Origin: Cyclobacteriaceae bacterium
GTDB taxonomy: Bacteria; Bacteroidota; Bacteroidia; Cytophagales; Cyclobacteriaceae
Reading direction: 5' to 3'
Length of the DNA: 34,482 nt
Assembly: GCA_018224645.1 (NCBI GenBank)
Contig: JAGTVG010000457.1
Span: forward strand, 1-34,482
A model generated the notes under the pieces. It did no database searches. It worked only from the letters and a program-made list of their open reading frames with translations, and was not told the origin of the DNA. Positions 29,647 to 34,482 of the stretch are shown in pieces; position 1 is the stretch's first letter, and the number at the start of each line of letters is the position of its first letter. Made by a program: the position numbers and the translations under genes.

Positions 29647-30013
29647 ATAATGCGGTTGATCCTGAGCCCATCCTATAGGAGCTTTGAGAACGCCTCCTCT
29701 CATGCCGGCAGACCAGACATCCAGCCTATGGCGTGATCGTCGGCAAAAGTGGAAATGCGTTTCCCCGGTAACGAGGGTCAGGAAGTTACTTCCTTTGAAA
29801 ACCCCGGGATGTGTTTTGACTGGCTCAGGATTCATTCAACTGTCCGTTGACGAAGAGCTGAGACAAGATCTTCGTTTCATGGGTATAAAAATTTGAAGAT
29901 CAACTGCCTCTCCGCCGGAGGGGTGCAGGGGTGGGTTTACACACCAACAGGTTCTCTTGAAAAGGACCCTGATGTCATCTCAAAGGGATGTTATCGCTTC
30001 CGGAGAAATTGGA

Positions 30014-30026: not shown

Positions 30027-31760
30027 ATGTTTTTGAACCTAAATCTATGCCGTTGGTATTTCAGGAAAGCCTGGAAATGGATTATTATGCTCATGGCCTT
30101 CCTGACCCTGGCTTCCTGCCAGCCCGGGATGAAAAAAAACCAACTTTTTACCCTTCTGAAACCATCCCGTACCGGGATAGATTTTAACAATGCACTCACC
30201 GAAACGCATGAAATGAATGTGATCATCTACCAGGATTTTTATAGCGGCGGCGGGGTGGCCATCGGCGATATCAATAACGACGGATGGCCTGATGTGTTCC
30301 TGACTGGTAATATGGTCCCGTCAAAACTATATCAGAACCTGGGTGATTTCAGGTTCAGGGATATTACCGGCCAGGCCGGCCTGGCCAATATGGGTCCCGG
30401 CTGGTTTACGGGAACCACCATGGTAGATATCAACAACGACGGCTTCCTGGACATCTTCATTGGAAAATCGGGACTGGAGGAAGCCGAGGACCGCCTTAAT
30501 TTACTGTACATCAACCAGGGTGATGGAACCTTTCTGGAGCGTGCACGCGATTTCGGCCTGGACCATGCCGGTTATGCCGTGAATGCCACATTTTTTGATT
30601 TCGATAACGACGGCGACCTGGACATGTACCTCGTGAACCAGGGCCCTGAAAAATATGAAGGGGGCAATGCTGAGTTTCTAAGAAATGAAGTACATGTTTT
30701 TGCAGGCGATAAACTTTTTGAGAATACCGGAAATAAATTCATAGATATCACAACGGAGGCAGGCATCTATAGTTCGATCATCGGATTTGCACACGGTGTG
30801 TCAGCCGGCGACATCAACAACGATGGATGGGAAGACCTTTATGTAAGCAATGACTTTTTCGAACATGATTATATCTACCTGAACAACGGCGATAAAACCT
30901 TCAGGGAAGTCACCAAATCCGCCACCAGACATATCTCATATTTTTCCATGGGAAATGATATGGCCGATTTCAACAACGATGGCCTGCTGGATGTCATGGT
31001 TCTCGACATGGTTGCGGAAGATAATCGCAGGCTGAAAGAAAACCTTGGCGGCATGAAGGATCATCGCTTCAGTGTAGCCCTGAAACTGGGATACCATTAT
31101 CAGTATATGTTCAACGTACTCCACCTGAACAACAGCAATGATCCCAACGGCGAACTATCATTCAGTGAGATCGGGCAACTGGCAGGCGTTTCAACAACAG
31201 ATTGGAGCTGGGCTCCCCTGTTTGCTGATTTTGACAATGACGGATGGAAAGACCTTTATATCACCAACGGGATCAGGAAGGATATCAGGAACATCGACTG
31301 GGGTGATCTTTATCATGATCTGCGGGGGTTGTCAGGGAATACGATGAATTTTGAACCCAGGTACTGGGACTTTTTGTTAAATTCCATGCCCTCTAAAAGG
31401 GTTCCCAACTATATGTTCCGGAATAACGGTGATCTCACCTATTCCAAAGTTACCGGAGAATGGGGTCTTTCGGTACCTTCTTTTTCAAACGGGGTTGCCT
31501 ATGGCGACCTGGATAATGACGGCGATCTTGACCTGGTTGTAAATAATATCGACGATCATGCTTTTGTATTTGAAAATCATTCGGAAAAGATCAGGGATGA
31601 CCATTTCCTGAGAATTAAACTCACCGGGGATGAAAAAAATAAAATGGCATTGGGAACAAAGGTCAGGATCTATCATGGGGATCATTTTCAATACCAGCAG
31701 CACTACCTGACCCGTGGATACCGCTCGAGCATGGAACCAGTCATGCATTTCGGGCTGTGA
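30027..31760 (+). CDS. FG-GAP/VCBS-repeat lipoprotein, N-terminal half of a gene split by TGA
   Basis: A 577-residue open part with a lipoprotein signal (KAWKWIIMLMAFLTLASC, lipobox LASC). At least seven FG-GAP/VCBS calcium-type motifs of the form D-N-DG--D follow (GDINNDGWPDVF, VDINNDGFLDIF, FDFDNDGDLDMY, GDINNDGWEDLY, ADFNNDGLLDVM, ADFDNDGWKDLY, GDLDNDGDLDLV), predicting a surface beta-propeller. It stops in the middle of an ASPIC/UnbV domain (LGTKVRIYHGDHFQYQQHYL...SSMEPVMHFGL then TGA at 31758-31760), and the domain continues in the same frame beyond. The start is taken at ATG 30027 because of the promoter box; 29988 and 30087 are alternatives. By family it is an exported protein of unknown ligand, often found near SusCD systems, but none is visible here. 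Confidence 0.88.
   Translation: MFLNLNLCRWYFRKAWKWIIMLMAFLTLASCQPGMKKNQLFTLLKPSRTGIDFNNALTETHEMNVIIYQDFYSGGGVAIGDINNDGWPDVFLTGNMVPSKLYQNLGDFRFRDITGQAGLANMGPGWFTGTTMVDINNDGFLDIFIGKSGLEEAEDRLNLLYINQGDGTFLERARDFGLDHAGYAVNATFFDFDNDGDLDMYLVNQGPEKYEGGNAEFLRNEVHVFAGDKLFENTGNKFIDITTEAGIYSSIIGFAHGVSAGDINNDGWEDLYVSNDFFEHDYIYLNNGDKTFREVTKSATRHISYFSMGNDMADFNNDGLLDVMVLDMVAEDNRRLKENLGGMKDHRFSVALKLGYHYQYMFNVLHLNNSNDPNGELSFSEIGQLAGVSTTDWSWAPLFADFDNDGWKDLYITNGIRKDIRNIDWGDLYHDLRGLSGNTMNFEPRYWDFLLNSMPSKRVPNYMFRNNGDLTYSKVTGEWGLSVPSFSNGVAYGDLDNDGDLDLVVNNIDDHAFVFENHSEKIRDDHFLRIKLTGDEKNKMALGTKVRIYHGDHFQYQQHYLTRGYRSSMEPVMHFGL
31758..31760 (+). other. In-frame TGA splitting a VCBS/ASPIC gene
   Basis: The codons around it read His-Phe-Gly-Leu-TGA-Thr-Asp-Thr-Leu-Val-Asn-Arg-Ile-Glu-Ile-Thr-Trp. 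ASPIC/UnbV domains normally have HFGLG followed by a short loop and a strand ending in I.WP.G, so a glycine codon (GGA) is expected and one G-to-T change would give TGA. Frame is kept on both sides from 30027 to 33416. Confidence 0.85.
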
Positions 31761-31772
31761 ACGGATACGCTT

Positions 31773-33416
31773 GTGAACAGGATCGAAATAACCTGGCCAA
31801 ACGGGAAAACTTCCCTGTTGGAAAAGGTAAAACCGGACCAGGAAATTACCGTCGATATAAAAACCTCCGGAAATGTACCCTTTGAAGAGAGGAGGGAATC
31901 CTCACCCTGGTTTTCCGGCATGGATGAAAAAACCGGAGTGAATTTCAAACATACCGAAAATGAGATCGACGATTTCTCCCGTGAACCATTGTTGCCCTAT
32001 AAATATTCCATGCTCGGACCTGCCCTGGCCACAGGGGACATCAACGGGGATGGCCTGGATGATTTTTTTATCGGTGGAGCTTTCCGTTACCCGGCTACCC
32101 TTTACCTTCAAAAACCGGATGGTTCGTTTGAACCGGTGAATGAAGAACGCTGGTGGGAAGAAAGGCTGTTCGAGGATGTTGGAGCCGTATTCTTCGATGC
32201 CGATAATGATGGTGATCTTGATCTTTACGTAGTCAGCGGGGGAAATGAATACAAGGAAGGCACGGACGGCCTTCAGGACAGGCTGTACCTCAATGACGGT
32301 AACGGCAACTTTTCCAAAGATCCGGATGCCTTGCCAACCATGCTGACAAGTGGTTCAAGGGTTGTTCCTTTCGATTACGACCAGGATGGTGACCTGGACC
32401 TGTTCGTAGGCGGCCGGCAGGTTCCGGGCGGCTATCCAAAGCCAGCCGACAGTTATCTGCTTGAAAACCGGAAAGGAAAATTTATTGACGTCACTCTTGA
32501 AAAGGCGCCGGATCTTAAAAAACTGGGCATGGTAACCGATGCTGTATGGATCGATTTTGACCAGGATGAAGATCCGGATCTGATCCTTGCCGGGGAATGG
32601 ATGCCCATCACGATTTTTGAAAATAAAGATGGGAAATTCCGGAAAATTGAAAACGCCGATAATGGACTGGAAAATTCTTCCGGGTGGTGGTTCAGCATTG
32701 CCGCCCATGATTTCGACAATGATGGTGATATGGATCTCGTTGCTGGTAACCTTGGGCTGAACTACAAATATAAGGCTTCAGCCGAAGGACCTTTTGAGGT
32801 ATTTTATCTGGATTATGATCAGAATAACTGGCATGAGATCGTTCTCGCCTACCACCAGGATGGTAATCTTTATCCGGTGAACGACCGGATGGATCTTGTC
32901 ACTACCATCCCGGCCCTTGAAGATAAATTTCCAAAAAACGATCCGTTTTCAGTGGCCACCATGTCTGAAATTTTCGGGGATTCCGTCCTAAACAATTCCC
33001 TCCATTACAAGGCCTGTACTTTTGCTTCAAGTTACATTGAAAACCTGGGCAATGGGAAATTCCGGATTACACCTTTTGATAATTTAGCCCAGATAACATC
33101 CCAGCATGCCATATTGTGCGAGGATGTCGATCAGGACGGAAATATGGATATCATTATGGCCGGTAATCTTTATGGGGCAGAAGTGGAGACTACGCGGAAC
33201 GATGCGGGTATCGGCATCCTGTTGAAAGGTGACGGGAAAGGGAACTTCAAGACCGTTGCGTATATGCAAAGCGGATTATTTGCCGAAGGAGACATCAGGG
33301 ATATGAAATGGCTCAGGACACCGACCGGAAAAATAATTGTTTGTGCCAGGAACAGCGATACCATTCAGTTTATCCGCCTCAATCAAAAGAAAGAGTACGC
33401 AGAAGTCCGTGATTAG
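31773..33416 (+). CDS. FG-GAP/VCBS-repeat protein, C-terminal half of the split gene
   Basis: A 547-residue open part in the same frame as the preceding half. Its nominal GTG start is only the first possible codon after the TGA. It begins with the second half of the ASPIC/UnbV domain (NRIEITWPNGKTSLLEKVKPDQEITVDI). Then come a second propeller-like region with six calcium-type motifs (GDINGDGLDDFF, FDADNDGDLDLY, FDYDQDGDLDLF, IDFDQDEDPDLI, HDFDNDGDMDLV, EDVDQDGNMDII) and the characteristic AGEWMP, GWWFSIAAHD, AGNLGLN and SYIENLGNGKFRI. There is no signal peptide, so this half alone would not be exported. Together the two halves make about 1,130 codons, a normal length for the family. Its last 38 bases overlap the 3' end of the opposite-strand paralogue. 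Confidence 0.87.
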   Translation: MNRIEITWPNGKTSLLEKVKPDQEITVDIKTSGNVPFEERRESSPWFSGMDEKTGVNFKHTENEIDDFSREPLLPYKYSMLGPALATGDINGDGLDDFFIGGAFRYPATLYLQKPDGSFEPVNEERWWEERLFEDVGAVFFDADNDGDLDLYVVSGGNEYKEGTDGLQDRLYLNDGNGNFSKDPDALPTMLTSGSRVVPFDYDQDGDLDLFVGGRQVPGGYPKPADSYLLENRKGKFIDVTLEKAPDLKKLGMVTDAVWIDFDQDEDPDLILAGEWMPITIFENKDGKFRKIENADNGLENSSGWWFSIAAHDFDNDGDMDLVAGNLGLNYKYKASAEGPFEVFYLDYDQNNWHEIVLAYHQDGNLYPVNDRMDLVTTIPALEDKFPKNDPFSVATMSEIFGDSVLNNSLHYKACTFASSYIENLGNGKFRITPFDNLAQITSQHAILCEDVDQDGNMDIIMAGNLYGAEVETTRNDAGIGILLKGDGKGNFKTVAYMQSGLFAEGDIRDMKWLRTPTGKIIVCARNSDTIQFIRLNQKKEYAEVRD

Positions 33417-34482
33417 CATTGTAAATTTCTATCTGGCGAACCTGTTTTCCCGTGAACAAGTTATTTCCCTGCGTTGAGAGGTAGCCGTATCCTTTATAAA
33501 ACTCGATTTTCTGACGGCTGTTATCGTTGAAACGAATGTATCCATAGGCACTATCTTCCGGCAATCCCACCACTTTCCCGGCGCCTCTTTTCTGTCTGAA
33601 GAAAGAAAGGCTGTCGTCATTGTTCGCAACCACAACCAGTGATCCGGTATCCCGGTAATTAAGCCTTACCAAACTTTTCACATCCCCGTCAGCAAATAAA
33701 TGCGATTCGGTTCCATCCATCACTGAAAAACTTCCATCCCCCATGCCTTTAAGCAGATAACCGATCGATGCATCATGCCAGCCCAGGGTCAGATTGGAGG
33801 TTTTTGAATTCCCCGTGAGTATAACATCGTAATTTCCATCATCATCAAAATCATCTGCGAGCATCCCGTAAACCGGTGCGAACTGCGTGATTACAGGAAG
33901 AGGACTCAAGCGGAACTTATTATTGCCAAGATTTTCAATATAACTCGACCGGAATTCATAAATGTTAAGATTCCTGGCCTGTTTCAGCTGGGTTTCATCA
34001 AGTATCTCATGCAGACCGGCGGCCGCAAAATCCCGGTAGGTCGGAAATTGCCGTTCAAGATAATTCATCTGCATGACCAGGGCACTTCTCGGATGAAAAG
34101 GGACATTCTTACCATTGACATAATGGAACACCAGCGGATCCACCTGTCCGTTCCTGTCAAAATCATCTGCAAACATACTGAGGGGTTCCCCGGGACTGGC
34201 TTTTAACCAGCTGTTCAATCCCAAATTCCCTGCAACATAATCGATATCCCCATCCTTATCAAAGTCTGCACCCACAATGCTGTTCCACCAGCCATTTGAA
34301 AATTCAAGTCCGGTTTCACTGCCGAGAGGCCTGAACGAGGATCCCGTATTTTCAAAAAAACTTACAGGCATCCATTCACCCACCAGTACGAGGTCCACCA
34401 GGCCATCGTTGTTGAAATCGGTAAATAAACCTCCGCTCACCATTCCCGCCACCCGCAATTCTGGGGCAATGGAATCTGTGAC
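33379..34482 (-). CDS. FG-GAP/VCBS-repeat protein, 5' part beyond the right edge
   Basis: About 367 codons from the right edge, where the frame is still open (the TTG at 34458 is internal), to the TGA at 33379. It matches the C-terminal half of the neighbouring VCBS protein along its length: GEWMPVSFFEN, GWWNSIVGADFDKDGDIDYVAGNLGLN, SSYIENLGNNKFRLSP, MLADDFDDDGNYDVILTGN, and ASIGYLLKGMGDGSF. It ends with an extra 90 residues or so (YGYIRFNDNSRQKIEFYKGYGYLSTQGNN...QIEIYNANHG), a region that resembles the ends of other exported Bacteroidota proteins and is missing from the paralogue. It is probably exported, since the N-terminal half should carry the signal. The two paralogues converge and overlap at their 3' ends. 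Confidence 0.88.
   Translation of the reverse strand, partial: VTDSIAPELRVAGMVSGGLFTDFNNDGLVDLVLVGEWMPVSFFENTGSSFRPLGSETGLEFSNGWWNSIVGADFDKDGDIDYVAGNLGLNSWLKASPGEPLSMFADDFDRNGQVDPLVFHYVNGKNVPFHPRSALVMQMNYLERQFPTYRDFAAAGLHEILDETQLKQARNLNIYEFRSSYIENLGNNKFRLSPLPVITQFAPVYGMLADDFDDDGNYDVILTGNSKTSNLTLGWHDASIGYLLKGMGDGSFSVMDGTESHLFADGDVKSLVRLNYRDTGSLVVVANNDDSLSFFRQKRGAGKVVGLPEDSAYGYIRFNDNSRQKIEFYKGYGYLSTQGNNLFTGKQVRQIEIYNANHGLLRTLSFD

Follow-up and report, generated by a model that had tools for sequence, protein, structure and literature searches.

A single in-frame TGA (31758–31760) interrupts the lipoprotein gene on the plus strand at 30027–33416. The gene belongs to a large paralogous family of FG-GAP/VCBS-ASPIC surface lipoproteins in a genome that appears to be of Bacteroidota type, and the stop is probably a nonsense mutation of recent origin. 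The window, the whole stretch of 34,482 nucleotides that was analysed, corresponds to contig C457 of an assembly of 561 contigs and 4,685,930 bases (87.8% complete). The interruption, the uninterrupted homologs and the undecayed sequence past the TGA were observed directly.

Translation of the 30027–33416 frame yielded 1130 codons, i.e., 577 sense codons, the TGA at residue 578, 551 further sense codons and the final stop, in agreement with the first-pass annotation, which had described one TGA splitting a 1,130-codon gene. In the coding-score scan the open frame began at 29973. The in-frame ATG at 29988 would give 590 amino acids before the TGA, and the ATG at 30027 provides a lipoprotein-like start. 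The first part (30027–31760) encodes a signal peptide with a lipobox-like LASC motif, FG-GAP/VCBS repeats and positions 1–37 of the 68-position UnbV_ASPIC model, and ends at the TGA. The second part (31761–33416) comprises the remainder of the ASPIC domain, more FG-GAP repeats and the 551 open codons with the final stop, and carries a coding signal. The coding score was 0.45 immediately before the TGA and 0.41–0.50 past it. It had also been claimed that the ASPIC/UnbV domain runs across the stop, and this was borne out: when the stop was replaced by X, PF07593 matched residues 541–608 (31647–31850) with 71.7 bits (4.8e-20), whereas the halves scanned separately scored 34.9 bits (model positions 1–37) and 20.9 bits (positions 41–68; cut-off 23.4). 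For the read-through protein the Pfam scores were 259.3, 80 and 71.7 bits against cut-offs of 26.9, 22.1 and 23.4, respectively. With FG-GAP repeats and UnbV_ASPIC above the curated cut-offs, the predicted product is assigned to the FG-GAP/VCBS-ASPIC lipoproteins. As many as 365 single-base changes could create a stop in the frame.

The comparison set consisted of matching non-self loci, same-genome paralogs included, in 108 rows representing 107 distinct loci (L010 and L112 being one gene). This is a sample of the homologs, drawn from several searches, one of which contributed the best 80 of its 582 matches and another the loci for 20 of its matches. One open frame spanned the TGA column in all 107 distinct loci compared and none shared the stop. 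Glycine occupied this column in 93 of the 107 loci, with Ala and Ser in three each, Pro and Asp in two each, and Lys, Tyr, Glu and Asn in one each. The claim that a conserved glycine had been lost therefore holds for most of the family, but the column is not invariant. The four preceding columns were H, F, G and L in 88, 97, 108 and 79 of the 108 rows, respectively. Among the best 80 of 582 matches, the best one in the named genomes was L029, from a Cyclobacteriaceae metagenome-assembled genome, near which the host may be placed; the G001:C93 locus was 58.8% identical over 1114 aligned positions, and in general the nearest relatives of the interrupted gene were approximately 58–65% identical in protein, a distance at which synonymous sites would be expected to be saturated. 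Three internal-stop matches among those listed (in G001, G009 and G046) were considered as candidates for a shared stop and rejected, their stops lying at match residue 3 or 7, upstream of the gene start, with an open frame of 1105–1178 codons behind.

In domain order and length the gene resembles the Bacteroidota two-part FG-GAP/VCBS lipoproteins with a central UnbV_ASPIC (PF13517, PF01839, PF07593); it differs from them in the stop within ASPIC, seen in none of the 107 compared loci. Of two solved structures matched in sequence by the first part, the better was CRTAC1, cartilage acidic protein 1 (PDB 9etn; E 2.4e-8, residues 73–224), a weak and partial match, and the other was integrin alpha-V (E 9.6e-4).

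The state of the second half bears on the age of the lesion. In the decay test, performed on alignment columns of at least 90% identity with the 103 full-length homologs (of 107) as the control, the interrupted gene was changed at 5 of 112 conserved columns before the TGA and at 3 of 66 past it; equal or higher rates of change were found in 36 and 40 of the 103 homologs, respectively. Under a stricter threshold, at which the homolog control failed, it differed at 3 of the 82 columns preceding the TGA and at 1 of the 48 following it. Mean identity to the homologs past the TGA was 0.42, compared with 0.41 for L112, 0.37 for L114 and 0.39 for L029. No further premature stop and no loss of frame were detected in 31761–33416. 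The annotated clean C-terminal frame is thus open and undecayed, but the 547 codons given for it count from the GTG at 31773, four codons past the TGA, and the open stretch is 551 codons long. When neutral drift of the second half was simulated under an assumed rate of one indel per 10 substitutions, with two thirds of the indels shifting the frame, the share of runs without damage was 45% at 0.5% divergence, 19% at 1%, 4% at 2% and 0.5% at 3%. Since the second half is undecayed, three possibilities follow: the stop arose recently, the DNA does not contain it, or expression of the second half continues. The lack of decay alone does not separate a young stop from an assembly error or readthrough, being equally expected under each. 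The undecayed second half and the uninterrupted homologs are together consistent with the suggestion that the change is recent or an assembly error.

Uninterrupted relatives, a single lesion and an undecayed remainder, all expected of a young nonsense pseudogene, were found. The gene likewise resembles the bacterial nonsense pseudogenes and in-frame-stop genes treated in PMC7918605 in having one in-frame stop, no other damage seen and intact relatives; it differs from them in being known here from one genome of its species. According to that source, in-frame stops are common across bacterial genes and for the most part transient; as a counterpoint, many genes with in-frame stops are argued there not to be pseudogenes.

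A consensus base error or a strain-mixture artefact in a metagenome-type assembly, with the gene intact in the cell, might also have produced the TGA; we regard such an origin as possible but less likely. One error per several megabases would suffice. The fragmentation and incompleteness of the assembly speak for this explanation, as do the undecayed second half and the end of the contig 1066 bases beyond the gene, inside a member of the same family. Against it, no chimera was seen, L112 and L029 being the nearest loci both before and past the TGA. Moreover, internal stops were absent from 12 SusC frames above the cut-off, 7 SusD places and 15 other ASPIC places, so stops are not scattered throughout the assembly, a point mildly in favour of a real allele. 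Among the 16 ASPIC places in the genome the interrupted gene was the sole one with an internal stop (one TGA). Three short partial SusC-model matches below the cut-off were listed with TAA or TAG, and a paralog match on C365 runs past a TAG located after 1128 codons, which looks like an ordinary gene end.

The relative at the contig end is a convergent FG-GAP family member on the minus strand (33379–34482). It is truncated at the contig end, has a 38-base overlap with the 3' end of the interrupted gene and matches the second part of that gene at 41% identity. The other minus-strand neighbours encode a histone deacetylase-like protein, a rhomboid protein and an OmpH-like protein. The matches listed between the window and L112, L113, L114 and L029 were confined to the interrupted gene, the convergent relative and the frames overlapping these two; hence, gene order is not shared, and these loci may not be strict orthologs.

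The coding-score scan for other split genes covered 101 loci, 926,267 of the 4,685,930 bases, on contigs that were not a random choice: 17 of 20 regions in one batch, all 20 in another and C424 were picked for holding matches, and the others by contig number. In-frame coding continuation past a stop was found at 46 places in this sample, or at 10 under a stricter version. The 46 places were translated with X in place of the stop and searched for Pfam domains, using a threshold of E 0.001 for 5 of them and E 1e-6 for the other 41, with only the best stretch per family retained. A Pfam domain gained score across the stop in one of the 46, the TGA at 31758–31760, and three of the 46 gave no Pfam family. 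A PF12679 match in L147:3085–5358 was rejected, as it scored 37.7 bits crossing the stop vs. 41.6 bits ending before it in an overlapping frame, so that the crossing adds nothing; the next gene there has its own start.

Two of the scanned loci deserve separate mention. L131:4095–4700 holds a sulfatase fragment that covers just positions 1–62 of the 301 in PF00884 and is followed by a TAA; the match does not resume in that frame, and the gene may be another broken one in this genome. In L138:3–1727 transketolase is encoded by two adjacent in-frame genes separated by TAG (the N part, then the pyrimidine-binding and C parts), which looks like the normal split-subunit arrangement.

The first-pass annotation had also proposed that the stop is read through or suppressed at some rate, so that short and long versions of the surface protein arise. 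Readthrough of the TGA at a functional rate appears very unlikely. The frame, the coding signal and the conserved columns do persist past the TGA, and PMC7918605 describes UGA as leaky and argues that readthrough of in-frame stops is widespread in prokaryotes. A predicted RNA fold spanning the TGA was somewhat better than shuffled sequences (z −1.85; 9 of 200 as good), but the fold past the TGA was ordinary (z −0.44). The stop is, however, private to this copy, being found in 0 of the 107 distinct homologs compared (which may not be strict orthologs), RF2 is present (prfB, 494.9 bits vs. a cut-off of 370) and UGA acts as an ordinary terminator, with TGA ending 242 of the 657 sampled coding frames. 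Reassignment of UGA (codes 4/25) does not apply to this genome, as UGA terminates and RF2 is present. The suggested check for a suppressor tRNA revealed no UCA anticodon among 18 tRNA places in the 87.8% complete assembly (150 of 212 candidates scored), a weak negative at this level of completeness. Altogether, no positive support was obtained for the production of two protein forms, since the stop is private, neither a suppressor tRNA nor a selenocysteine system was found in the incomplete genome and the stop would cut the short product within ASPIC.

As to the selenocysteine system, tRNA-Sec, SelA and SelB were not found, a negative weakened by the 87.8% completeness. Three matches to the tRNA-Sec model (one of 48 bits, cut-off 47) were identified by ARAGORN as Ser (UGA anticodon), Tyr and Ser tRNAs; the same model also matched in all 14 control genomes, above the cut-off in five. 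The SelB model remained far below its cut-off (102.6 vs. 242.25). The L135 match to the SelA family in Pfam (51.7 bits) was discarded because its nearest NCBIfam model was the DgaE ammonia-lyase subfamily (198.1 of 385.3), with selA reaching 50.4 of 267.9. A small catabolic cluster may be present at this locus (L135:3106–7576), where genes for an amidohydrolase, an L-PSP-type protein, a DgaE-like PLP enzyme and a polysaccharide deacetylase adjoin one another.

In E. coli, UGA readthrough can be increased by a tRNA-Trp whose anticodon stem has four pairs (PMC13092985). In the same-genus genome G001, the tRNA-Trp(CCA) found by ARAGORN has a 5-pair anticodon stem with G-U as the top pair. Neither nusG nor tRNA-Trp was found in the 87.8% complete assembly with its mere 18 tRNA places, and an empty tRNA-Trp result shows little under these circumstances. 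ARAGORN also listed, outside the 18 places, an own-genome tRNA-Phe with an unusual AAA anticodon, which may be spurious.

The ends of other ASPIC genes show where a short form would be expected to stop. Fourteen of the 15 other ASPIC places in the genome were checked (C136 was left out). The gene ended 6, 9 and 22 codons past the domain in three places and 117 codons past it in one; two reached the contig end, and eight were long forms with 442–588 further codons. Natural short forms thus end past the domain, whereas the TGA falls 31 codons before the domain end, so the truncated product is not equivalent to a natural short form; this, too, argues against functional readthrough. It seems highly improbable that the TGA recently arose as a functional attenuation switch, in which leakiness of the stop would lower the amount of the full two-part lipoprotein and leave the truncated form as the main product. 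Reinitiation at the GTG at 31773, yielding the second part as a separate protein, is likewise very unlikely. The 547 open codons from this GTG begin just four codons past the TGA, but the product would begin within the ASPIC domain and would be devoid of a signal peptide, and a split at the TGA position was seen in 0 of the 107 homologs compared.

For the recent nonsense mutation, which we consider the probable reading, we infer that the base is truly present in the cell, that the function of the gene has been lost and that the loss is tolerated. The ribosome would then halt at residue 578, and the product, if stable, would consist of the first repeat region and a truncated ASPIC domain. The second part would be unmade, or made at the background level of UGA misreading, and the gene would represent a young pseudogene or a loss-of-function allele of the strain. 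The loss is probably tolerated because other family members exist.

A young nonsense allele or a base error would be expected to look just like this, with a lone premature stop in one draft genome and clean sequence following it; such a pattern does not in itself point to recoding. The interrupted lipoprotein gene is an ordinary finding, and taken alone it matters little, being a single copy in a family with many paralogs.
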